The notes beneath the pieces were generated by a model. That model was not told where the DNA came from, ran no database searches, and was given only the letters and a program-made list of their open reading frames with translations. Below are positions 4,243 through 35,319 of a stretch of DNA of 39,881 bases, one piece after another; the stretch's first letter is position 1, and every line of letters begins with the position of its first letter. The DNA comes from Gammaproteobacteria bacterium (GTDB taxonomy: Bacteria; Pseudomonadota; Gammaproteobacteria; QNFE01). The stretch covers positions 1 to 39,881 of the forward strand of contig QNFE01000013.1 in assembly GCA_003645455.1 (NCBI GenBank), written 5' to 3'. A program made the translations under genes and the position numbers.

Positions 4243-5427
4243 ATGATAAAACCACACGGCTCAGATGAGTTAAACCCATTATTCGTTTATGATTCAAATA
4301 AAAATGATGAACTGCAACATTCGGCACGAGATTTAAAATCAATCGTGGTGTCATCGCAAACAGCAGGTAATGCTGTCATGCTCGGCAGTGGATATTTTAA
4401 CCCCTTAACAGGTTATATGAATATCGCAGATAGCTTGGAAGTTGCCGACAATATGCACACAACTTCTGGGCTTTTTTGGCCTACCCCTGTGATGAATGTT
4501 GTGGCAAACTCGCAAGACATACAAGCAGGCGACACTATCTCTTTGAAAGATCCTAATGTTGAGGGCAACCCGATCTTAGCGGTGCAAAATGTCCGCTCTG
4601 TTGAAACCTTGACAGATACACAAATTGAAAAAATTTGTCAAAAAACCTATGGCACAAATGACAAAGAACATCCAGGAGTTGCCGCTTTTTTGGAACAAGG
4701 AAATGTCGTTATTGCAGGAGATATTCAAGTTTTAAATCATAGTTATTTTGCCACCGAGTTCCCAGACACTTTTAAAACTGCGGTTGAGATTCGCCATGAA
4801 ATTAAAGAGCACGGCTGGAATAAAGTGATAGCTTTTCAGACTCGCAACCCTATGCACCGCGCCCATGAAGAATTATGCCATATGGCAATGGATGCGATTA
4901 AAGCTGATGGAGTTGTAATTCATATGTTGCTTGGTAAATTGAAACCTGGCGATATCCCAGCCCCGGTGCGAGATGCCGCTATTCGTAAAATGGCAGAAAT
5001 TTATTTTCCACCAAATACTGTGATGGTAAATGGGTATGGTTTTGATATGTTGTATGCAGGACCGCGTGAGGCAGTTTTGCATGCTGTTTTTCGCCAAAAT
5101 ATGGGAGCCACTCATTTTATTATCGGACGAGATCATGCAGGTGTTGGCGATTATTATGGTGATTTTGAAGCCCAAGAGATTTTTGATGAAGTCAAAGACG
5201 GCGAGTTAGAAATTGAGATATTTAAAGCCGATCATACCGCTTATTCCACCAAACTCAATAAAGTAATTATGATGCGAGATGCCCCCACCGGACACACCAA
5301 AGAAGATTTTGTTTTATTGTCTGGCACCAAAGTTCGTGAAATGCTCGGCAATGGCGAGGCACCACCACCTGAATTCTCACGTCCTGAGGTTGCTAAAATC
5401 TTGATGGATTATTATCAAAACCTGTAG
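4243..5427 (+). CDS. sat: Sulfate adenylyltransferase (ATP sulfurylase), dissimilatory-type
   Basis: Interconverts APS + PPi and ATP + sulfate. The 394 residues match the homo-oligomeric Sat family, unlike the two-subunit CysDN. Motifs are complete: QTRNPMHRAH (199-208, nucleotide and sulfate site), GRDHAGVG (295-302), and a C-terminal SGTKVREMLGNGEAPP followed by FSRPE. An AAAGGA precedes the ATG. In sulfur oxidisers that use AprAB, Sat runs toward ATP and consumes PPi; AMP is the co-substrate of AprAB. Its position next to hppA and adk suggests a shared PPi/AMP economy. No apr or dsr genes lie in this window, so the direction is inferred. Confidence 0.95.
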   Translation: MIKPHGSDELNPLFVYDSNKNDELQHSARDLKSIVVSSQTAGNAVMLGSGYFNPLTGYMNIADSLEVADNMHTTSGLFWPTPVMNVVANSQDIQAGDTISLKDPNVEGNPILAVQNVRSVETLTDTQIEKICQKTYGTNDKEHPGVAAFLEQGNVVIAGDIQVLNHSYFATEFPDTFKTAVEIRHEIKEHGWNKVIAFQTRNPMHRAHEELCHMAMDAIKADGVVIHMLLGKLKPGDIPAPVRDAAIRKMAEIYFPPNTVMVNGYGFDMLYAGPREAVLHAVFRQNMGATHFIIGRDHAGVGDYYGDFEAQEIFDEVKDGELEIEIFKADHTAYSTKLNKVIMMRDAPTGHTKEDFVLLSGTKVREMLGNGEAPPPEFSRPEVAKILMDYYQNL

Positions 5428-5481
5428 GGGTAATTAAAATCGGCGATAGGGTTATATTTATTCAAACCTTGGGCTAAACCT

Positions 5482-5658
5482 ATGTATTTTATGCTTATTC
5501 TGATTGCATGGTTTTTGTCTATTTTTATCGGATATGCAATTGAACCTGCGATAGTGGCAGCATTAGGATACATAGATGCTTTAATTACTGGCTTTATATT
5601 ATTTTTATTGTATTTTACTAATGTTTATAACCATAACAAGACAACTGCAAACAATTAA
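5482..5658 (+). CDS. Small two-helix membrane protein, unknown function
   Basis: A 58-codon frame begins MYFMLILIAWFLSIFIGY and continues AIEPAIVAALGYIDALITG before a second hydrophobic stretch (FILFLLYFTNVYN) and a polar tail. Two transmembrane segments are predicted by eye. The same frame is open upstream to 5434 (including LFKPWAKP) without a standard start, so the N-terminus is uncertain. No clear Shine-Dalgarno is seen. It lies between sat and a secreted-protein gene on the same strand and occupies most of an otherwise empty 300-bp gap. Family not recognised. Confidence 0.5.
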   Translation: MYFMLILIAWFLSIFIGYAIEPAIVAALGYIDALITGFILFLLYFTNVYNHNKTTANN

Positions 5659-6301: not shown

Positions 6302-7234
6302 CTACAAGCCTTTTTTATTGACAACAACCAAGGCAGTTTTAATAACGGTTTTGAACTCTAACCAAATACTCCAATGTTTGATATAATATAAATCATACAT
6401 TAGTTTTTGACGAGCATCCTCCGCTGATTCTCCGTATGGATACATAACCTGAGCGTGTCCTGTGATACCAGGGGCGATTAAATGTCGAATATTATAATAC
6501 GGAATATCTTGCTGATAACCTGCGACCAAATCAACCCACTCCGCCCGAGGACCGATAAGGTGCATATCGCCTTTTAAAATGTTCCACATCTGGGGCAACT
6601 CATCATAACGTTTTGAACGCATTATTTTGCCATAGGCAAATATTCTGGGGTCGTCTTTTTTGGTGTAGTGATTAAAAAATTCGGTATTTTTATTCATACT
6701 GCGAAACTTAATACAAACAAACTCTTTATTGTTGAGCCCCACTCTTTTTTGTTTAAATAAAATCTCTCCTGGACTTTGTTTTTTTATTTTAAATCTGCAT
6801 TTTATCATTACCAACCACGAGAAAAAAAATAACCAAAAAACTCCAAAATAATCAATTATTCTTTTAGCTATTTTTTGGTATAAATTAAATCCTTTTATGT
6901 CGTCCAAATAATGCAAATCAGTATTGTCTTGCGGGATATAACATTTTTCTAAATACTCTTCTAAAAAATGTTCAATTGTGATGATTTTTAAATTGCTATA
7001 ATCGGAGTTAAATTTTAAATCCGTTAAAAATTGAATTATTTTTTTATCTGTTTTTTGATGAATATTCAAAACAATAATAGCAAAATTATGGCTTTTTAAT
7101 AAATCCTCAATCGTTGTTATTGTCTGTGTAGTGGTTTGTTTTGTTAGACTTAATCTTTTTATATTGGCAAATTTATTTTTCAGTCTTTGAGTCTCAAGTT
7201 CCGTAAATTTGTATTTTTCACCTATTAAAATCAT
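6302..7234 (-). CDS. Polyprenyl-phosphate glycosyl-1-phosphate transferase (initiating sugar transferase)
   Basis: Transfers the first sugar-1-phosphate to undecaprenyl phosphate on the inner membrane to begin repeat-unit assembly. The C-terminal ~190 residues are a bacterial sugar transferase domain: KRIIDYFG, one hydrophobic segment (VFWLFFFSWLVMI, about residues 132-144), then PGEILFKQKRVG, IKFRSM, YDELPQMWNILKGDMHLIGP and a C-terminal KHWSIWLEFKT. The N-terminal ~110 residues are soluble and not recognised; they lack the four extra helices of WbaP-type enzymes. The start overlaps the stop of the upstream Rpn-type gene by 4 bp (ATGA), so translation is probably coupled. It is the last gene of the minus-strand locus. 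Confidence 0.88.
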   Translation of the reverse strand: MILIGEKYKFTELETQRLKNKFANIKRLSLTKQTTTQTITTIEDLLKSHNFAIIVLNIHQKTDKKIIQFLTDLKFNSDYSNLKIITIEHFLEEYLEKCYIPQDNTDLHYLDDIKGFNLYQKIAKRIIDYFGVFWLFFFSWLVMIKCRFKIKKQSPGEILFKQKRVGLNNKEFVCIKFRSMNKNTEFFNHYTKKDDPRIFAYGKIMRSKRYDELPQMWNILKGDMHLIGPRAEWVDLVAGYQQDIPYYNIRHLIAPGITGHAQVMYPYGESAEDARQKLMYDLYYIKHWSIWLEFKTVIKTALVVVNKKGL

Positions 7235-8154
7235 TTGCGAGCTGATGCTATTATTTCTGTGATTTTTTCGCAGTTTAAATTGAAATGTTGTGCAATATCA
7301 TCTACACTCACATTAAATCTGTGCATGCCCAGTATGCCTTTTTCTATGCCTTTTTCTATGCCTTTTTCTATGCCTTTTTCTATGCCTTTTTCTATGCCTT
7401 TTTCTATGCCTTGCTTTAACCCTTTATCCATTCCTCTTTCTGCTCCACTCTCTTCTGCTAACTCTATTGAACTTTTTTGAATATAAATAAACTCTTTTCT
7501 TTTTCTTTGGATTTCTAACTCTTCTTCGTTTAAGTGTGCTTTGCTTGCTACATCTAATGCATTTTTCAAATTAACATCCATATTTTTAGGAATATGCTCC
7601 AAACTACCGGCATTTTTTAAAAAATATATCCATTGATCTGTTATATTTTTTAATTCTTTGATGTCTTTCTTGAATTTTGGTAATTCTACAAAAATAAGTT
7701 CAATATCATCCGTATAAGTAATTAGTTGTTCTTTTTCAAGCAATTTAAAACTGTTGATTGTATTATTAGTATCAGAGAACATAACAAAATCAACAATACT
7801 CAAAGCAATTACAGGATTTAATAGATGATAATCTTCTGCTGCTTTTAATTGGATTGAATAATTTTTCGCAGCATTATACAAAACTCTTTTTTCAAAACCT
7901 TTGTGATTTAAAACTTGCATTTCTATGATTACTTTGCTGTTGTCATCCAAGACTGCTTTGACATCAACAAAACTATCTTTCATACCTTTTATCATAGGAA
8001 TACTATAAGGGTCCACTATGATTAGATCTTTTATTTTATGGGTTTTATTTTTATAAATTATAGCATTCAAAAAACTGATAAGAATATCCCGGCTACCATC
8101 ACTACCGAACACTTTTTTAAAAGCATAATCTGTTTTAACATCTAAAAAACTCAT
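7231..8154 (-). CDS. Rpn/PD-(D/E)XK family nuclease-like protein with GIEK repeats
   Basis: The N-terminus MSFLDVKTDYAFKKVFGS is typical of the Rpn family (recombination-promoting nuclease, often annotated as a putative transposase, PDDEXK_2). The nuclease core is visible as FVDVKAVLDDNSKVIIEMQV (about residues 62-81), giving an Asp followed by Glu-x-Gln. The C-terminal part has six GIEK tetrapeptides encoded by an exact 12-bp repeat, then a helix-turn-helix-like VSVDDIAQHFNL stretch. Length 307 is normal. It sits between rfbB and the sugar transferase with a good AAGGA site and a 4-bp overlap downstream, which is odd for a mobile-type gene in a sugar operon. Confidence 0.82.
   Translation of the reverse strand: MSFLDVKTDYAFKKVFGSDGSRDILISFLNAIIYKNKTHKIKDLIIVDPYSIPMIKGMKDSFVDVKAVLDDNSKVIIEMQVLNHKGFEKRVLYNAAKNYSIQLKAAEDYHLLNPVIALSIVDFVMFSDTNNTINSFKLLEKEQLITYTDDIELIFVELPKFKKDIKELKNITDQWIYFLKNAGSLEHIPKNMDVNLKNALDVASKAHLNEEELEIQRKRKEFIYIQKSSIELAEESGAERGMDKGLKQGIEKGIEKGIEKGIEKGIEKGIEKGILGMHRFNVSVDDIAQHFNLNCEKITEIIASARK
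7333..7410 (-). repeat. 12-bp coding tandem repeat encoding GIEK
   Basis: The unit TATGCCTTTTTC recurs with exact 12-bp period at 7333, 7345, 7357, 7369, 7381, 7393 and 7405 on the plus strand. Because the unit is a multiple of three, copy changes would lengthen or shorten the GIEK run without shifting the frame. Confidence 0.95.
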
Positions 8155-8198: not shown

Positions 8199-9236
8199 TT
8201 ATTTTAGGTTTGCATATTTTGACAAATACCAGTCAACCGTTTTTAAAATACCACTATCAAAATCCTCATCGGCACTCCACCCCAAATCATTTTCAAGTTT
8301 TGTAGCATCTATCGCATATCGTCTATCATGTCCTGCTCTATCCTCAACAAAAGTTATTAAATCTTTATATGATTTGCCATTTTGTTGTGGAACTTTGTCA
8401 TCCAAAATAGTACAAATTCTATCAACAATTTGTAAATTTGTTCGCTCATTTTTGCCCCCTATGTTATAAATATTAGCAGTTTTGCCGTTATGATAAACCA
8501 AATCAATGGCTTTGCAATGGTCCAAAACATACAACCAATCACGGATATTTTTGCCATCACCATAGATAGGAATACTCTCACCATTCAAGGCTTTGCGGAT
8601 AATCGTGGGGATTAGTTTTTCAGAGTGTTGTTTTGGTCCGTAATTATTACTACAATTTGTAATGATAACATCCAAACCATAGGTTTCATTATAAGCACGG
8701 ACAAACATATCCACCGAAGCCTTAGCGGCGGAATATGGCGAGTTAGGAGCATAGGCTGTTTTTTCTGTGAATAAACCGCTGCTCCCCAGTGAGCCATATA
8801 CTTCATCTGTTGAGATATTATGAAAGCGACAATTTTTATATTTTTCTTTATACTTAAAAGGGGCATCTAACCAATATTTATAAGCCACATCCAACAAAGT
8901 CCAAGAACCTGTCACATTAGTTTGAATAAAAATTTCAGGTTTTTTGATAGAATTATCAACATGAGATTCAGCGGCAAAATGAATAACCCCCATTATGTCA
9001 AATTCGCCAAAAATACTCTCAATCAATGGGCGGTCACATATATCCCCTTGAATAAACTTATAACGAGGATGATTTTCTATCTCTTGTAGATTAGACAAAT
9101 CCCCAGCATAGGTTAATAAATCAAGATTTATAATATTGTAATCTTCATATTTTTCAACAAAAAGGGGGATAAAATTAGAGCCAATAAAACCTGCCCCACC
9201 TGTTATCAAAATTGACTTTTTATTCACTTTATTCAT
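8199..9236 (-). CDS. rfbB: dTDP-glucose 4,6-dehydratase
   Basis: Second step of dTDP-L-rhamnose synthesis, forming dTDP-4-keto-6-deoxyglucose in the cytosol. An extended SDR with the NAD motif GGAGFIGSNF near residues 13-22, the active-site segment STDEVYGSLG, the catalytic YSAAK with Ser and Tyr/Lys in place, and NCSNNYGPKQHSEKLIP. Its 345 residues are full length. An AGGAT Shine-Dalgarno lies just before the ATG, and only 7 bp separate it from rfbD upstream. The order is rfbA, TA pair, rfbC, rfbD, rfbB. Confidence 0.96.
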   Translation of the reverse strand: MNKVNKKSILITGGAGFIGSNFIPLFVEKYEDYNIINLDLLTYAGDLSNLQEIENHPRYKFIQGDICDRPLIESIFGEFDIMGVIHFAAESHVDNSIKKPEIFIQTNVTGSWTLLDVAYKYWLDAPFKYKEKYKNCRFHNISTDEVYGSLGSSGLFTEKTAYAPNSPYSAAKASVDMFVRAYNETYGLDVIITNCSNNYGPKQHSEKLIPTIIRKALNGESIPIYGDGKNIRDWLYVLDHCKAIDLVYHNGKTANIYNIGGKNERTNLQIVDRICTILDDKVPQQNGKSYKDLITFVEDRAGHDRRYAIDATKLENDLGWSADEDFDSGILKTVDWYLSKYANLK

Positions 9237-9243
9237 AAATATC

Positions 9244-10107
9244 CTATTGTAAAATTATCTTTAAACAGCGCTTCAAACTATCACTCCATTGAGGTATTTT
9301 AAGATTAAATTGTTGTTTTATTTTTGTTTTATCCAACACGCTATACAACGGACGCGGGGCAACTGTTGCATAATCTTGACTTAGGATAGGGTTTATCTTG
9401 CACTTTAACTTTGCCATTTGCATGATGGCTGTGGCAAAATCCGCCCAGCTTGCCACTCCTTCATCGCTGTAATGATAAATTTGCGGTTTTTGATTTTTGA
9501 TTCTTGGCAAAATTTTTAAGATAGTTTGAGATAAATCGGCAGCATTAGTAGGTGTGCCAATTTGATCGCAAACAACATTTAATTGCTCTTTTTGTTGTCC
9601 TAACTTTAACATAGTTTTGACAAAATTATTGCCATAATTTGAATATAACCACGAAGTTCTAATGATAATACAATTATCTGGATTTGCTTTGAAAATTGCA
9701 CTCTCTCCTAATAATTTTGTTTTGCCATAGATTGATTTGGGGTTTGGTTTGTCGTCTTCTTTATATGGAATATTATTGTTACCATCAAAAACATAATCAG
9801 TTGAAATATGGACAAGTGTTACCCTATATTCTTTGCTTAAAATTGCCAGATTTTCGACTGCGAGATTATTTATTTTATCCGCAAAATCAGGCTCTTGTTG
9901 TGCTTTATCAACATTGGTATAACCTGCACAATTGATAATTATATTTATCTGATTATTTTTAAGATATAGCTCTACATCATTATAATTTGTAACATCTAAC
10001 TCATCTTTGTCGGTAAAAAAATAACTATATTGTTGAAATTGCACCAATAGGTTTTTAAACTCTTGCCCTAATTGTCCGTCTGCCCCGGTGATTAAAATAT
10101 TAAACAT
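9244..10107 (-). CDS. rfbD: dTDP-4-dehydrorhamnose reductase
   Basis: Final NAD(P)H-dependent step to dTDP-L-rhamnose. Begins MFNILITGADGQLGQEF (Rossmann GxxGxxG). Has HISTDYVFDG, the YGKTK catalytic Tyr/Lys, and a C-terminal RPLYSVLDKTKI typical of RmlD. The frame is open to an ATG at 10128, but those seven extra residues precede the conserved start. The ATG at 10107 gives 287 residues and overlaps the rfbC stop by 8 bp, consistent with coupling. Confidence 0.95.
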   Translation of the reverse strand: MFNILITGADGQLGQEFKNLLVQFQQYSYFFTDKDELDVTNYNDVELYLKNNQINIIINCAGYTNVDKAQQEPDFADKINNLAVENLAILSKEYRVTLVHISTDYVFDGNNNIPYKEDDKPNPKSIYGKTKLLGESAIFKANPDNCIIIRTSWLYSNYGNNFVKTMLKLGQQKEQLNVVCDQIGTPTNAADLSQTILKILPRIKNQKPQIYHYSDEGVASWADFATAIMQMAKLKCKINPILSQDYATVAPRPLYSVLDKTKIKQQFNLKIPQWSDSLKRCLKIILQ

Positions 10108-10675
10108 AATAATCCACTCCATATTCAAACAAAGCTGGGGTTTGTTTTAAGGTTGGTTGGTTTTGGTCTTTATCTGATAATTTTAACTCATTTTTATCTA
10201 ACAACCAGTCGATATTTGTTTTGTCATCATCAAAAGCCAAACCTCTATCGCATTCTTTTGAATAAAAATTATCCACCTTATAGGAAAAAATAGTATCGTC
10301 CTCCAACACAACAAAGCCATGAGCAAAACCACGAGGAATAAAAAGTTGTTTTTTGTTTTGTTCTGATAATTTTACCGTTACATGTTTGCCAAAAGTTGGA
10401 CTGCCTACTCTTATATCGACAGCAACATCCAAAACAGCACCTTTTATGACCCTCACAAGTTTGCTCTGAGCAAAGGGTGGCAGTTGAAAATGCAAACCTC
10501 GCAAAACCCCCTTGCAACTTTTAGATTCATTATCTTGACAAAACTTTACTTTGAACCCTAAAAACTCATCTAACAAATCCTGTCGAAAAGTTTCAACAAA
10601 ATAGCCACGCTCATCACCGTGCACCACAGGTTCGATGATTACAATATCGAGGATTTTAGTTTTGATAAATTTCAT
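10100..10675 (-). CDS. rfbC: dTDP-4-dehydrorhamnose 3,5-epimerase
   Basis: Third enzyme of the rhamnose pathway. A single cupin of 191 residues with the diagnostic GVLRGLHFQLPP (catalytic His), KLVRVIKGAVLDVAVDIR, and FIPRGFAHGFVVLEDD. Length is typical. The ATG overlaps the stop of the upstream MazF-like toxin gene by 4 bp (10672-10675), so its translation probably depends on ribosomes finishing the toxin frame. That arrangement is unusual. Confidence 0.95.
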   Translation of the reverse strand: MKFIKTKILDIVIIEPVVHGDERGYFVETFRQDLLDEFLGFKVKFCQDNESKSCKGVLRGLHFQLPPFAQSKLVRVIKGAVLDVAVDIRVGSPTFGKHVTVKLSEQNKKQLFIPRGFAHGFVVLEDDTIFSYKVDNFYSKECDRGLAFDDDKTNIDWLLDKNELKLSDKDQNQPTLKQTPALFEYGVDYYV

Positions 10676-10998
10676 ATTTTATAACACTGCAAAGAATTAC
10701 AAGCATACGATAGTATTTCCTTGAATTTGATTGTATCAATTGTTGCTAACAACTTGGCGGTTTTAATTATTTTGCAATCTATTGCACTGATTTTTGGCAC
10801 AACAACTACTGATTCTTTTTTTAAAAATCCACTTTCTAAATCAGAATTATTTAACCTAACTCCATCTCTTGTTAAATTTGATGTAAGCGGTAAAAATAAA
10901 AAATCATTTTGCAGTTGGTGAAAAACTAAAACCGGTCTGCCTTTGAGTTTGCTAAAATCTGAATATGGAATTTCAACATAATATATGCCTCTTACCAT
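10672..10998 (-). CDS. MazF/PemK-family toxin
   Basis: A 108-residue protein starting MVRGIYYVEIPYSDFSKLKG then RPVLVF. This is the conserved opening of PemK/MazF endoribonucleases (GxIxxVxFPYSD...KxRPxLV). It is followed by a FLFLPLTSNL strand and a C-terminal helix. The family cleaves mRNA at short motifs. It overlaps the antitoxin upstream by 7 bp and rfbC downstream by 4 bp, so the TA pair is translationally fused into the rml operon. Family assignment is by motif. Confidence 0.8.
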   Translation of the reverse strand: MVRGIYYVEIPYSDFSKLKGRPVLVFHQLQNDFLFLPLTSNLTRDGVRLNNSDLESGFLKKESVVVVPKISAIDCKIIKTAKLLATIDTIKFKEILSYACNSLQCYKI

Positions 10999-11231
10999 TT
11001 TGAATAATCCTCATCGTCATCATCAAAATCATTAGAAGATAACCCAATAGTGTTGTTAGCAAAATTATCTAATTCGTTATCGCTCCAATATTGCCAATTT
11101 TGAGATCCGTCTGGCGATTTTTTACTTGTTTTATTTTCTACTATCATTACATCATTTGTTGAAAAATTTTTTAACAAATTTATAATTTTATCAAAAACAC
11201 TATCATTTATGTGCAACTTTAAACTGTGCAT
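10992..11231 (-). CDS. Antitoxin for the MazF-like toxin (shared N-terminal module type)
   Basis: A 79-residue protein. Residues 1-28 (LKLHINDSVFDKIINLLKNF) match the N-termini of two other antitoxins in this window, at 34245-34472 and 35095-35319. The tail is acidic and ends DDDDEDYSKW, like the toxin-wrapping ends of MazE-type antitoxins. The DNA-binding/oligomerising role of the N-terminus and the toxin-binding role of the tail are inferred. It is preceded by a 39-bp gap after rfbA containing TATGAT, a possible own -10 box. Confidence 0.7.
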   Translation of the reverse strand: MHSLKLHINDSVFDKIINLLKNFSTNDVMIVENKTSKKSPDGSQNWQYWSDNELDNFANNTIGLSSNDFDDDDEDYSKW

Positions 11232-11270
11232 ATTTTATTCCATAAAAAAAGATTATCATACCATAAAAAA

Positions 11271-12155
11271 TTATTTTTTACCCACAACCTGCTCAATTAG
11301 ATACTGGCCGTATTGGTTTTTAGACAGAGGTTCGGCAAGTTTTAATAACTGCTCCTTATTGATATAACCCATCTGAAAAGCTATCTCTTCAATACAGGCA
11401 ACTTTCAAACTTTGGCGTTTTTCAATTGTTTGAATAAATTGTGATGCCTCCAACATTGAATCATGCGTGCCAGTATCAAGCCAAGCAAACCCACGACCCA
11501 TCAGTTCCATTTTTAATCTATTTTCATTCAAATAATCCGCATTCAAAGTTGTTATCTCTAACTCCCCTCGTGCAGATGGTTTGACATTATGAGCCTTTGC
11601 CACGACATCGTTAGGATAAAAATAAAGCCCCACCACCGCATAATTTGATTTTGGTTTGTCTGGTTTCTCTGCCAAACTTATGACATTACCATCACCATCA
11701 AACTCTGCCACGCCATACGATTGTGGGTCTTTGACATAATAACCAAACACGGTAGCTTTATTTTCAACACGAGCATTTCGGACCGATTTATGCAATAAAT
11801 CAACTAATCCTGCACCATAAAAAATATTATCGCCTAACACCAGACAAACATCATCATCACCACCGATAAAATCCGCCCCCAAAATAAAAGCCTGTGCCAG
11901 TCCATCAGGAGAGGGTTGAATTATATATGAAAATTTCATACCAATCTCCGTGCCATCACCTAATAAATCTTTAAACCTTGGCAAATCAGTCGCGGTCGAG
12001 ATAATCAAAACCTCCGTAATACCTGCCAGCATCAACACCGACAACGGATAATAAATCATCGGTTTGTCATAAATTGGCACCAACTGTTTTGAGACCCCCT
12101 TGGTAATAGGATAAAGCCGTGTGCCGGACCCACCTGCCAAAATTATTCCTTTCAT
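11271..12155 (-). CDS. rfbA: Glucose-1-phosphate thymidylyltransferase
   Basis: First step of dTDP-sugar synthesis: dTTP + glucose-1-phosphate. The 294 residues begin [20 protein letters not shown] (nucleotide-binding loop). They contain [24 protein letters not shown] (metal Asp), [18 protein letters not shown] and [16 protein letters not shown] strong AGGAG lies 8 bases before the ATG. Only 10 bp separate it from the ATPase gene upstream, so it probably shares that gene's consensus promoter at 13480-13508. Confidence 0.96.
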
Positions 12156-12165
12156 TTATACGCTC

Positions 12166-13455
12166 CTAAAAAATTTCCGAATCCAACAAAAACTCAAATA
12201 ATGGTTTTATGATAACTCTTTTATTGTTTATTTTCAAAATTTCATCATGGTCATTGTTTATCAGATAACTTTGATTTAATTTGAAATAATCCATAGCTTC
12301 CATAAGACCTGCTATTTCTCTTTTTTTTGTGTCTGGATTGGTGATATCATAACTGACATTGATTAAAATTTTCTTATTATTTAATCGGACATAAAAATCC
12401 ACCTCTTGCTTTTGCTTGTAATAATAAATTTGTGAACTCATGCGTCGCAAATGCAAAAATACCACATTTTCATATAATTTACCCATATCATCGTCAAAAG
12501 CATAGTCATATATTTTTTTAAATCCGTTATCGATGGCATACATTTTTTTGGGATTTCTTTGCTGTTGTTTGATAGAGTTGCGATAAATTGGCACAACAAA
12601 AAGAGCAAAAGCATCTTCTAAATGAGACACATATTCATAAATTGTATCTTTGCTTAATTTATAACCTTGTGATTTAAAATTATTAAAAAGCTTGTTAAAA
12701 CTTATCAAGGTAGCAATATTATTAAAACAATATTTGGTTAAAATTTTCAGCAAACTTCTATTTTTTACATTATGTCTATCAACTATATCTTTATATATAA
12801 TCAACTCCAAATAATCACTTAATATTTTTTGTGATATCATCTGGTCTTGATTGATAGTTTCAGCAAAGCCACCATTGATAAGATAATCTGATAGAGCATT
12901 TTTAATATAACTTAGTTGTTTAGATGAGTTAAAATTGATGGCAATGTTTTTATACGACAAATACTCTTTGAACGAAAATGGATATATTTCATAAGTTAGC
13001 GTGCGTCCTCGCAAACTTGTGGCAATTTCGGTGGACAAAAGTTTGGCAGATGAGCCTGTGATATAAATTTGAATATCTGATGTATCATATATGCGCCGAA
13101 CATATAATTCCCAGTTGTCAACCACTTGCACCTCATCCAAAAACAGATATATTTTTTCATCTCTTTTGGCAGGATATAATTCATAATAAGACTCAAGCAG
13201 TGAATCAAGATCTTTCAAACCCAAAGGATATAATCTATCATCTTCAAAATTGACATAAATTATATTTTCTCTGACTACTTTTTTTCTCAACTTATCGACA
13301 ACATCAAAAAGAATAGAAGTTTTGCCCGCACGACGCACCCCAATTAAACAAATAACTTTATTAGATTCAAGCGGAATTTGATATTCTCTTGGCAGAATAT
13401 CATTCATATCTCTTTCAATAAAATCAACAATAATTTTTTTAAACTGCTTTTTCAT
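12166..13455 (-). CDS. AAA ATPase with DUF4143-type C-terminal domain (copy 1)
   Basis: A 429-residue ATPase of the AAA_14/DUF4143 group. Walker A is GVRRAGKTS (about 38-46) and Walker B YLFLDEVQ (about 103-110), with the sensor segment YITGSSAKLL near 130. The C-terminal half carries the DUF4143 signature, including YAIDNGF and a nuclease-fold-like EVDFYVR region near residue 355. These proteins are widespread, often near TA or mobile genes; function is unknown. Translation starts at an ATG preceded by AGAGGA. It has a consensus sigma-70 promoter with an embedded dyad. It is only distantly similar to the copy at 13970-15253. Confidence 0.85.
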   Translation of the reverse strand: MKKQFKKIIVDFIERDMNDILPREYQIPLESNKVICLIGVRRAGKTSILFDVVDKLRKKVVRENIIYVNFEDDRLYPLGLKDLDSLLESYYELYPAKRDEKIYLFLDEVQVVDNWELYVRRIYDTSDIQIYITGSSAKLLSTEIATSLRGRTLTYEIYPFSFKEYLSYKNIAINFNSSKQLSYIKNALSDYLINGGFAETINQDQMISQKILSDYLELIIYKDIVDRHNVKNRSLLKILTKYCFNNIATLISFNKLFNNFKSQGYKLSKDTIYEYVSHLEDAFALFVVPIYRNSIKQQQRNPKKMYAIDNGFKKIYDYAFDDDMGKLYENVVFLHLRRMSSQIYYYKQKQEVDFYVRLNNKKILINVSYDITNPDTKKREIAGLMEAMDYFKLNQSYLINNDHDEILKINNKRVIIKPLFEFLLDSEIF

Positions 13456-13479
13456 TTTTTATCCTCTTAAAAAAGGACA

Positions 13480-13508
13480 ATTATAACCATTTTTGTCCTT
13501 CTTGTCAA
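13480..13508 (-). promoter_or_regulatory. Consensus sigma-70 promoter with iterated operator-like sites
   Basis: On the minus strand TTGACA (13508-13503) is separated by exactly 17 bases from TATAAT (13485-13480), a perfect consensus promoter 25 bp upstream of the ATPase ATG. The octamer AAGGACAA occurs three times across it in alternating orientation: 13473-13480, 13493-13500 (as TTGTCCTT) and 13507-13514. The inner pair extends to a perfect 11-bp inverted repeat, TTTTTGTCCTT and AAGGACAAAAA, around 6 bp (13490-13517). This overlaps the -35 box and spacer, as expected of a repressor operator. Confidence 0.85.
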
Positions 13509-13640
13509 GGACAAAAATAAACATCAAAGCCACAGGATAAAATTATTTCTTTGTCATCAATTTTTTTATACTATTTAATATTTTTTCCAACTCATTTTTT
13601 GATAAAATATACACTATTTTCTTATTGCTCTAAATCACAC

Positions 13641-13660
13641 TTGAATTATACAAAGGTCTC
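13641..13660 (-). repeat. Solo end of the GAGACCTTTG element
   Basis: Read on the minus strand this is GAGACCTTTGTATAATTCAA, sharing GAGACCTTTG and the following ATAA with the element at 1298-1370. No inverted partner is seen nearby. It adjoins the 3' end of the MNT gene and may be a remnant of transposition. Confidence 0.5.
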
Positions 13661-13663
13661 ATA

Positions 13664-13951
13664 TTAAAGTTTTATTCCCCATGCTCTTGCCTCCTTTTCT
13701 ATCAACCTGTTTTCATCAAAATTAAATATAATATCAATTTTCTGCTCACCTAATTCCTTTTTTATTTTTGCCAAAAATTTCAATTTCTTTTTGAATATAT
13801 TTATTTTGTTTTCAATTACCAAAAACAAATCAATGTCTCCGCCTTTTTTGCTGTCATCAACCCTTGATCCAAACAAATAAATTTCACCTTTTTGAAACAC
13901 ATCATTAAAAGATTTTTTAATTACTTGGACGTATTGTTTGTTTAATCTCAT
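13664..13951 (-). CDS. MNT-type minimal nucleotidyltransferase
   Basis: A 95-residue protein with the pol-beta-fold motif GEIYLFGSRVDDSKKGGDID (GS...DxD: Gly-Ser at about 29-30 and catalytic Asp residues in GGDIDLFLV). These proteins usually pair with a HEPN protein (HEPN/MNT toxin-antitoxin, where MNT AMPylates HEPN). No HEPN gene follows; instead there is a 208-bp gap and then the ATPase. A strong AAGGAG precedes the ATG, and the DUF4143 ATPase copy 2 lies just upstream (18-bp gap). It may be an orphan, or may work with one of the ATPases; that is speculation. Confidence 0.8.
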   Translation of the reverse strand: MRLNKQYVQVIKKSFNDVFQKGEIYLFGSRVDDSKKGGDIDLFLVIENKINIFKKKLKFLAKIKKELGEQKIDIIFNFDENRLIEKEARAWGIKL

Positions 13952-13969
13952 TTTTTTAACTCCTTGAAT

Positions 13970-15253
13970 TCACATCATAATTGCAACACTTGCACTAAAA
14001 AAATCCCAAAATGGCACTATCAAAATATCATCACAGTCATTTTGTTTTATGCTGTTTTTATCCTGATTATAGGTAAGCAGAATTTTTTTATCTGTTTTGA
14101 TTTTTAATTTTTTTAAACCAGCCATTTCTCTTGTGATATTTTGATTTGTCAGTTTATAACATACCTGTATGGCTATAATTTTTTCATTTTTAATGCAGAT
14201 AAAATCACATTCAGAGTCTTTGTTGTGATAATATATTTCAAACTCTTGTTTTAAAAGCTCTGTATAAACAAGATTTTCAAATCTTTTGCCGAAGTCTTTT
14301 GAAAACCTAAAAGATGTTTGGCTCAAAAAACTATTATCACTTATATATATCTTTTTTTTGGTTTTTATCTGCTCTTTTAAAGAATAAGAATATTGCTTTA
14401 TTTCATTGCATAAAAAACTATCAATCAATATTTTTATATACTCTTTTACGGTATTGTCATTTATGTTTAAAACTCGAGCAATAGAGTTGTAAGAATATAA
14501 ATTAGTGCTATTAGATATTATAAAATTTGTAACCTCTTTGAAAGTTTTGCTGTCTCGCAGATGATTATTAGCGACACAATCTTTAAAAATAATAGTATCA
14601 TAATAACTTAAAATTATATCCCTTTTGTATTTTGCCTCATCCATAACCTCAACAAATGAACCAAAATTCATCATATCGTCTATGATGTTTAACAACTTAG
14701 CTTTATTTTCCAACAAAGCCTGCCTATCATTTATTTTATTTATAGCAACAATCTCCGCAAAAGATAGCGGATAAATTGTCTCTTGGATATATCTGCCACT
14801 TAGCAGTTTTGCATATTCCCCATCTAACAAAGATGAGTTCGAACCTGTAATAAATATTTTTTTCACAACCTCATTATCATAGATTGCTTTGACAAATTTT
14901 TCCCAATAGACAACATTCTGCACTTCATCCAAAAATAAATATTGCACTTTTGTGCCGGTTATTTTCTCACTTAATTCCAACAGAGTATAAAGATTTTTAC
15001 TATCATTACAAATCTCACTAAAATATGGATCATCAAGATTGATGTATAAAACTGATTTTTTATCAACCGTTTGGACAAGATGATTGATAAGCAATTTAAA
15101 CAAAGTAGTTTTGCCACTTCTTCTGATGCCTTTTAAAACCTGTATATGTTTGAGGTGCAACTTATCAACAATAGTTTTAAATCTATCTCTATTATAAAAA
15201 TTATAAGACCGCCTTTGCCAATGCGGATTATGATTTAAGATGGCTTTTTCCAT
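13970..15253 (-). CDS. AAA ATPase with DUF4143-type C-terminal domain (copy 2)
   Basis: A 427-residue protein. Walker A is GIRRSGKTTL (about 42-51) and Walker B YLFLDEVQNV (about 106-115), followed by IFITGSNSSLL and a GRYIQETIYPLSFAE segment typical of the AAA_14/DUF4143 family. The C-terminal region has a YISDNSFL signature and an ECDFI...IAIQVCYKL stretch resembling a PD-(D/E)XK core. AGGAAG lies before the ATG. It has its own promoter and a dyad in the leader. It neighbours the MNT gene and copy 1, forming a small ATPase-nucleotidyltransferase island inside the sugar locus. Confidence 0.84.
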   Translation of the reverse strand: MEKAILNHNPHWQRRSYNFYNRDRFKTIVDKLHLKHIQVLKGIRRSGKTTLFKLLINHLVQTVDKKSVLYINLDDPYFSEICNDSKNLYTLLELSEKITGTKVQYLFLDEVQNVVYWEKFVKAIYDNEVVKKIFITGSNSSLLDGEYAKLLSGRYIQETIYPLSFAEIVAINKINDRQALLENKAKLLNIIDDMMNFGSFVEVMDEAKYKRDIILSYYDTIIFKDCVANNHLRDSKTFKEVTNFIISNSTNLYSYNSIARVLNINDNTVKEYIKILIDSFLCNEIKQYSYSLKEQIKTKKKIYISDNSFLSQTSFRFSKDFGKRFENLVYTELLKQEFEIYYHNKDSECDFICIKNEKIIAIQVCYKLTNQNITREMAGLKKLKIKTDKKILLTYNQDKNSIKQNDCDDILIVPFWDFFSASVAIMM

Positions 15254-33881: not shown

Positions 33882-34245
33882 TCAAACCCCTAATAATTTT
33901 AAATTTAACTCTGTTATATTTTTTAATCTAATGTCGTTTGTAAGCAACATTGCATTGTGTGAAATACAAGTAGCAACAATAATCGCATCAGGCAATTTGA
34001 TTTTATATTTTTTTCTAATTTTTATTACTTTGTTTGTGATATCCTTATCTATGTATACCGCTTCAAAATATAACAAGAAGTTTTTTATAAAGTTTTCTTC
34101 CTGTTTGTTCTGAAAATTATATCCTAAGATTTCCATACAAGTGATTATGGAGATGGCATATTTTTTGTTCTCATCAATAATATCGTCTATATTTATAATT
34201 TCTTTTGATAGGTATATAACTACATTTGTGTCTAAAAAAAATCAT
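33882..34245 (-). pseudogene. VapC-type PIN-domain toxin, frameshifted in an A8 tract
   Basis: Starting at the ATG at 34245 (overlapping the antitoxin stop as TAATG), the codons give M-I-F-F and then a wrong frame, because the plus strand has eight A at 34234-34241. With seven, the product reads MIFLDTNVVIYLSKEIINID and continues without a break into MEILGYNFQNKQEENFI, KLPDAIIVATCI and LLTNDIRL, a complete PIN domain of about 120 residues with Asp4 and the late acidic residues. So only one base separates an intact toxin from a dead one. It may be a true mutation, a slippage-controlled gene, or a sequence error. PIN toxins are RNases. Confidence 0.82.
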
Positions 34246-34472
34246 TACCATTCGTCTCGTTGTTGTTTTTGCCATTGCATTGGGTCATCAATGGCTTTGA
34301 AAACGTCTACATTTTTTGTAGCAAAAAATTCTTTTATTGAGTTTTTTGTAGTTGTTTTGGCTCTCTTTTGTTTTTTTTCAATTACTTTTAAGCCATTTAA
34401 TTTTAAATTATTTAACAAAAACATTACATTGTTATAAATGTTGTCATCTATTTGTAAATTTACACTTTTCAT
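34245..34472 (-). CDS. VapB-like antitoxin (shared N-terminal module type)
   Basis: A 75-residue protein. Residues 1-25 (VNLQIDDNIYNNVMFLLNNL) match the shared N-terminus seen in two other antitoxins in the window. The tail ends DDPMQWQKQQRDEW, like antitoxins that partner PIN toxins (DPxxWQxxxRxEW). AAGGG is placed 8 bases before the ATG, and a TATAAT lies at 34498-34493. The stop overlaps the vapC ATG by 1 bp. If the toxin is inactive the antitoxin could still act on other modules through the shared domain; that is speculation. Confidence 0.72.
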   Translation of the reverse strand: MKSVNLQIDDNIYNNVMFLLNNLKLNGLKVIEKKQKRAKTTTKNSIKEFFATKNVDVFKAIDDPMQWQKQQRDEW

Positions 34473-34544
34473 TTTATAGCCCTTATCAGTTTATTATATT
34501 AACTCGGCAGTTAAATACATGTCTCCAACCCTGCACAAGAACCA

Positions 34545-34566
34545 ACAAGGGGGCATGCCCCCTTGT
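34545..34566. repeat. Second copy of the CAAGGGGGCATGCCCCCTTG palindrome
   Basis: A perfect 22-bp palindrome with the same 20-bp core as the hppA-sat site at 4178-4203. Flanks differ. It lies about 70 bp upstream of the vapB-like ATG, between the RelE gene and the antitoxin, where it could end transcription coming from the right. Confidence 0.85.
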
Positions 34567-34754
34567 CAAAAAAGAGATATTTATTGTTGCCAGTTTAATA
34601 ACTTGCCACAAAAACAATCCCACCGTCTCTTTTTTATTCTTAAAATACCTGACATTATAACCTAATTTAAAAACAACACTCTGTTTTATTAAATATGCAC
34701 CCATCAACTCTACATACAAATCAAATCAGGAAAAATCATCATAAATAGATTTGT

Positions 34755-35105
34755 CTACCTATGGTAATGTTTTTCGATTGCCTCCATAATTTTTTCATCT
34801 ATTTGTTGTTCTGGTATATTTTCAAGATCTGATTTTGAATATATAGATAACAGCACTATGTTATTATTTTCATCATTTTTTAGATAAATAACCCTATATC
34901 CTGAACTTTTTCCTTTATTATTGTCGCTATTTTTTAATCTAATTTTGTAACAATTTTTACCTATATGAACCGATGAATCGTTTACAGTCAGTGCAGACAA
35001 CATCTCCAATAAAATTTTATAATCTGTTCTAATGTTTTTGTATTTTTTTGATAATTTTTTTAACTCTTTTTTGAAGGTATCGACCGCTACAATATTACAA
35101 GTCAT
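34755..35105 (-). CDS. RelE/ParE-family toxin
   Basis: From the ATG at 35105 this is a 116-residue protein. It shows the RelE/ParE pattern: VAVDTFKKELKKLSKKYKNI, then a GKNCYKIRLKN strand, GYRVIYLKNDENNNIVLLSI, and YSKSDLENIPEQQI near the end. Some members cleave mRNA on the ribosome, others attack gyrase; this one is close to the mRNA-interferase kind with YSKSD. The frame is open to 35123, but the 11-bp overlap with the antitoxin from 35105 is the normal TA arrangement. Confidence 0.82.
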   Translation of the reverse strand: MTCNIVAVDTFKKELKKLSKKYKNIRTDYKILLEMLSALTVNDSSVHIGKNCYKIRLKNSDNNKGKSSGYRVIYLKNDENNNIVLLSIYSKSDLENIPEQQIDEKIMEAIEKHYHR

Positions 35106-35319
35106 CAAGAACATCCCAAGCATTTGTCAGCGGTTTGTTATTTTTTTTAGATTCATCGGCTTCTTTCAAAGCACGGCTTACAGATACAGACAACTCATCA
35201 AGCTTAGCCAAATTATCTTGTTCTATTTTTTTTATTGTTACGTCATTTTTAAAACTACCCAGCAACCAGAGTATTTTATCTGATATGTTATCATTCATTT
35301 CTAATTGATAAGTTTGCAT
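35095..35319 (-). CDS. Antitoxin for the RelE-like toxin (shared N-terminal module type)
   Basis: A 74-residue protein beginning MQTYQLEMNDNISDKILWLL, the third example of the shared N-terminal module in this window. The C-terminus KPLTNAWDVLDDL is unlike those of the MazF and VapC partners and fits a toxin-specific tail. An AGGAT precedes the ATG and a TATAAT lies at 35366-35361. DNA binding and autoregulation are expected from TA biology but not shown. Confidence 0.72.
   Translation of the reverse strand: MQTYQLEMNDNISDKILWLLGSFKNDVTIKKIEQDNLAKLDELSVSVSRALKEADESKKNNKPLTNAWDVLDDL

Follow-up and report, generated by a model that had tools for sequence, protein, structure and literature searches.

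The MazF/PemK toxins of type II toxin-antitoxin (TA) modules (PF02452), among them B. subtilis EndoA/YdcE, S. aureus MazF, and M. tuberculosis MazF-mt3, are encoded downstream of an overlapping antitoxin gene, and the TA pair described here, which lies in a window of 39,881 nucleotides (the whole stretch of DNA that was analyzed), resembles these systems in that arrangement, in toxin size, in predicted fold, and in the Arg and Thr positions. It departs from them in that its toxin shares about 13 to 21% identity with solved MazF proteins and falls beneath direct PF02452 or NCBIfam detection, while its antitoxin is unlike any profiled antitoxin. The surrounding genes share their content and A-C-D-B order with described rmlACDB/rfb dTDP-rhamnose operons, whereas in the closest of those loci rmlA and rmlC are about 0 to 30 nt apart and insert-free. 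A third counterpart, a HigBA pair in an unrelated gammaproteobacterium (locus L107), likewise occupies the rmlA-rmlC slot on the same strand with promoter-like sequence upstream; however, it differs in its unrelated toxin family, its toxin-first order, the lack of a stop/start overlap with rmlC, and a long upstream gap. None of the publications consulted describes a TA module in the rmlA-rmlC slot. We consider it likely that a self-contained mobile TA pair with its own promoter, otherwise an ordinary MazEF-like module, landed in the rmlA-rmlC junction, giving a clean case of a TA pair within a biosynthetic operon that shares a stop/start overlap with a core enzyme.

Organization of the locus and the rmlA-rmlC junction

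On the minus strand, the genes follow the order rfbA, a 39-nt spacer, antitoxin, toxin, rfbC, rfbD, and rfbB (Table 1), so that rfbA is upstream of the pair and rmlA, rmlC, rmlD, and rmlB all stand together on one strand, as in a dTDP-rhamnose (rml/rfb) operon. The flanking rml genes are genuine, with Pfam E values all at 9.5e-70 or better; RmlA is 73 to 76% identical to its counterparts at the nearest gammaproteobacterial loci, and the assigned rfbC start is supported by RmlC homologues that match from residue 1. The original prediction had put the pair between rfbA and rfbC with overlaps of 7 bp and 4 bp, and its coordinates, strand, and overlaps proved exact. Moreover, the two small genes are evidently not chance ORFs, because paralogues of both proteins (39 to 46% identity) are paired in the same arrangement on a second contig (C79), and further genomes of the class encode toxin homologues.

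Table 1. Features of the rml locus and of the inserted pair
Feature	Coordinates	Strand	Basis
rfbB (rmlB), dTDP-glucose 4,6-dehydratase	8199..9236	-	Pfam GDP_Man_Dehyd/Epimerase
rfbD (rmlD), dTDP-4-dehydrorhamnose reductase	9244..10107	-	Pfam RmlD_sub_bind, E 3.7e-95
rfbC (rmlC), dTDP-4-dehydrorhamnose 3,5-epimerase	10100..10675	-	Pfam dTDP_sugar_isom, E 9.5e-70
ATGA, 4-bp overlap of toxin stop (TGA) and rfbC start (ATG)	10672..10675	-	coordinates
Toxin, PemK/MazF-like, 108 aa, intact	10672..10998	-	alignments, profile vs PDB, AlphaFold/Foldseek
Direct repeat (10 bp) ATAAAATATG, copy 2, at rfbC start, possible insertion seam	10673..10682	-	sequence repeat
Antitoxin/toxin overlap, 7 bp	10992..10998	-	coordinates
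Antitoxin, 79 aa	10992..11231	-	ORF; C-terminal conservation with two paralogues
Direct repeat (10 bp) ATAAAATATG, copy 1, at antitoxin start	11229..11238	-	sequence repeat
Leader of the TA pair, 39 nt, between rfbA stop and antitoxin	11232..11270	-	coordinates
Predicted extended -10 promoter TGGTATGAT	11255-11263	-	motif, inside the 39-nt leader
rfbA (rmlA), glucose-1-phosphate thymidylyltransferase	11271..12155	-	Pfam NTP_transferase, E 8.8e-74

The junction was compared with 99 rmlA-rmlC neighbors from 274 genomes of the class, with the list of gaps compiled by hand from tables. The gap exceeded 150 nt in 7 of the 99 and had a median of 26 nt; in another 31 loci where rmlA precedes rmlC, the median was 20 nt, against about 600 bp in the window. 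This difference supports the view that the pair was inserted into the rml operon, the empty site being seen only in distant relatives, and agrees with the location originally proposed. Judged from their ORFs, other enlarged junctions carry IS-like debris, chromate transport genes, an oxidoreductase, or noncoding DNA. A TA pair occurs in one of the 99 other junctions, namely, the HigB (Gp49, E 6.9e-23)/HigA (HTH_3) pair of genome G210 (L107, 1302-1940), where rmlC starts 8 nt after the higA stop and TTGAGG-17-TATAAT lies upstream. Given this single pair from another family, the slot appears able to take TA pairs independently and rarely and is evidently not a conserved TA slot. The survey of rml operons for TA genes at this position, as originally suggested, thus turned up a single further pair, of a different family, among 99 junctions, a figure that provides a first rate for the landing of TA pairs in rml operons.

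The two copies of ATAAAATATG bracket the pair exactly, and of the 351 pairs of gene starts that the window offers, this one has the longest pre-ATG match; as a post hoc observation, the repeat is suggestive of an insertion seam. The last toxin residues, YKI, probably derive from the rfbC leader. A stronger reading holds that the repeat arose as a true target duplication, or as the microhomology junction of a mobile process by which TA pairs are spliced in ahead of start codons. This reading concerns the route of arrival and is compatible with an opportunistic landing, yet it seems rather unlikely: the repeat is short and A/T-rich and was noticed post hoc, no transposase or recombinase is attached to the pair, and contig C79 has a similar AATAAAATATGCAC at its end, so that copy 1 may be part of the antitoxin leader.

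Relationships of the toxin and the antitoxin

The toxin gave no direct match to Pfam, NCBIfam, or PADLOC models, and a PF02452 search of the genome recovered other MazF genes and missed this one, a PF02452 match being a detection threshold rather than a biochemical definition. Its relationships emerged through intermediates: two C79 paralogues share 44 to 46% identity with it, and it matches proteins in other genomes of the class with E values down to 2.2e-7, and the protein matched at that value itself matches PF02452 (PemK_toxin) at 1.1e-10. Searched alone against the PDB with phmmer, the toxin returned chance matches only, and a profile was required; the profile, built from 25 homologues, retrieved MazF structures with E values down to 3e-8. 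The AlphaFold model of the toxin (pLDDT, 89.9; pTM, 0.81) shows a CcdB/MazF-type fold, with the top 35 Foldseek matches in the PDB all being MazF (probability of 1.00, TM of about 0.7, and about 0.74 for the best matches) and CcdB coming next. In addition, the conserved residues include R21 and P22, invariant in the toxin and the 25 homologues, T39 and S40, nearly invariant, and S63; the toxin retains every column that is invariant over the homologues, and its R21 falls on the RP motif when aligned with EndoA/PemK structures. On the strength of the intermediates, the profile search, the predicted fold, and the conserved Arg and Thr at the catalytic positions, the toxin is assigned as a divergent PemK/MazF-type protein and a predicted endoribonuclease. 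The MazF-type identity first suggested is therefore upheld, and the loss of MazF catalytic features, which would have spoken against it, was not seen, as R21 and T39 are kept in the homologue alignment. No close relatives of the toxin were found among genome contigs, viral contigs, phages, or plasmids.

The antitoxin matched no Pfam, NCBIfam, or PADLOC model and contains no recognized DNA-binding domain. Its N-terminal half diverges from the antitoxins of the two paralogous pairs, while its C-terminal segment, ending in DDxEDYSKW, is strongly conserved with them, the final EDYSKW being identical. Such conservation is as expected for a putative toxin-binding tail and, together with the two small overlapping genes, corresponds to the organization of a type II module.

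Predicted promoter of the pair and translation of rfbC

In the leader, the predicted extended -10 promoter TGGTATGAT is followed by a T-run and then a weak Shine-Dalgarno sequence, GGAA, and no good -35 element was seen. A strict form of this leader motif, TGNTATRRTN{2,9}TTTTTWANGG, matched five times in the 2.06-Mb genome and never in a reversed control, and all five sites precede TA genes of different families: the window pair, a MazEF pair, a RelBE-like pair, a RelB-like ORF truncated by the end of its contig, and a HicB-type gene, which is parted from its leader by an inverted-repeat element. This element (AAGCTCTGATTAAC...GTTAATCAGAGCTT, with GGGGACATGTCCCC inside; L146, G000:C14, about 1525-1620) sits between the TA-type leader and the HicB-like gene, downstream of a thiC-like gene. 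A relaxed form of the motif gave 14 matches versus 3 in the control, mostly 35 to 57 nt upstream of gene starts and including housekeeping genes, for instance, a phosphofructokinase-like gene and a dapD-like gene (names from reading the ORFs). Since the relaxed form also marks housekeeping promoters, the motif is no longer regarded as peculiar to TA pairs and is best described as the ordinary predicted extended -10 promoter of this organism. Pairwise comparisons of the pair's leader with single leaders were only weakly significant (p of about 0.003 for 1 of 10 leaders; p of 0.0025 in the comparison with the gene at 13455, 1 of 4 leaders).

The TA pair thus most likely has its own promoter, as predicted from the motif. 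A search around the pair gave no terminator-like site, and hence rfbC, rfbD, and rfbB would be transcribed from its promoter as well. The proposal that the pair is fused into the operon, to which a separate promoter and terminator would be contrary, is accordingly weakened by the predicted promoter in the leader, but it retains the point that no terminator isolates the pair from the genes downstream.

Shine-Dalgarno pairing was good for rfbA (-7.7 kcal/mol), the toxin (-6.1 kcal/mol), and rfbD (-6.0 kcal/mol), whereas that of rfbC (+0.6 kcal/mol) was among the weakest of 31 starts. With no useful Shine-Dalgarno sequence and an ATGA overlap, termination-reinitiation after the toxin is a plausible mode of rfbC translation. 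About ten other window genes are likewise without a strong Shine-Dalgarno sequence, so weak pairing alone is no proof of coupling, and the original statement that epimerase translation probably needs toxin translation can be kept as plausible in view of the overlap but is tempered by these other weakly pairing genes. Such dependence would matter, since rfbA and rfbC each have a single match in the genome at the cutoffs used. The full chain, in which rfbC translation depends on the toxin, an antitoxin-controlled promoter drives rfbCDB, and the state of a MazF-type module sets the dTDP-rhamnose supply, is unlikely; if true, cells losing the toxin reading frame would lose rhamnose synthesis too.

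Spread of TA pairs and explanations for the placement

The genome is rich in TA pairs and holds several further MazF pairs, some of them broken. Contig C79 (L007, G000:C79, 1-5926) carries a dense TA array with PIN, RelE-like, and DUF4160/DUF2442-like genes (the last by eye) and three MazF genes, two of which are apparently frameshifted; these two (L007:3653-3892 and 5118-5495) are the window toxin's closest paralogues, and their apparent frameshifts lie at different places beside intact antitoxins, which could be decay or an assembly error in a repeat-rich contig. The modules of this array are separated by a repeated 80- to 200-bp piece, found on contig C79 only, whose minus strand reads like the end of an HTH protein. 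An integron nature of the array was unsupported, with no integron integrase above the cutoff and repeats lacking a strong fold. VapBC-, RelBE-, and MazEF-like pairs occur on contig C47, and contig C82 (L021, G000:C82, 2862-3441) carries a broken MazF gene with an intact-looking antitoxin, which a fabD-like gene follows on the same strand after about 33 nt, a second MazF-type pair beside a core biosynthetic operon.

Considering the several MazF pairs and the dense array, chance spread would be enough to account for the placement, and an opportunistic landing is the economical reading, explaining the pair without a selected addiction role. A type II pair, with the antitoxin first and the divergent PemK/MazF endoribonuclease second, would have inserted into the rmlA-rmlC junction with its seam at the rfbC start, leaving the toxin stop and the rfbC start overlapping as ATGA. 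The antitoxin would bind and block the toxin and would probably repress the leader promoter, and a fall in antitoxin would let the toxin cut RNA. The landing would incidentally have placed rfbCDB behind the pair's promoter with no intervening terminator, and rfbC would probably be translated by ribosomes that had just finished the toxin. Such an overlap could illustrate how a TA pair comes to be difficult to dislodge even when no addiction role has been selected. The intactness of the window pair compared with its frameshifted paralogues counts against this explanation; it could mean selection at the rml site, a younger age, or an assembly error in the repeat-rich contig of the paralogues.

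The same intactness would fit an addiction or regulatory device, kept in the slot to stabilize the rml/exopolysaccharide locus or to tie rhamnose synthesis to toxin translation, as would the overlapping starts and stops, the missing Shine-Dalgarno sequence of rfbC, the lack of a terminator, the single copies of rfbA and rfbC at the cutoffs used, and the independent arrival of HigBA in the same slot. That a TA pair fills only 1 of the 99 other junctions, with unrelated material in the other enlarged ones, that the pair has its own predicted promoter, and that TA pairs are scattered across the genome make such a device improbable, and the proposal that losing the operon would kill the cell could be made equally for any TA pair. 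A decayed or nontoxic remnant, in which the toxin ORF would owe its intactness to chance or to a role as translational leader of rfbC and would no longer encode an RNase, draws on the strong divergence from curated MazF models, the probably rfbC-derived YKI end, and the frameshifted paralogues, but it is very unlikely in view of the retained invariant columns, the high-confidence predicted MazF fold, and the EDYSKW antitoxin end identical to those of the paralogues.

Elsewhere in the window, the polysaccharide genes are interspersed with a PD-(D/E)XK transposase-type gene, two AAA_14/DUF4143 genes, a nucleotidyltransferase gene, a PIN fragment, and a RelE-like gene. The Rpn/PD-(D/E)XK transposase-type gene (7231-8154) lies between rfbB and a sugar transferase gene and contains a tandem GIEKGIEKGIEK repeat near its C terminus. 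At 12166-15253, the two AAA_14/DUF4143 ATPase genes (PADLOC PDC-S01 models) flank the nucleotidyltransferase gene, which is MntA-like, within a run of polysaccharide genes. The PIN-domain fragment and the RelE-like gene, accompanied by small unassigned ORFs at 33882-35319, are further TA remnants in the polysaccharide region.
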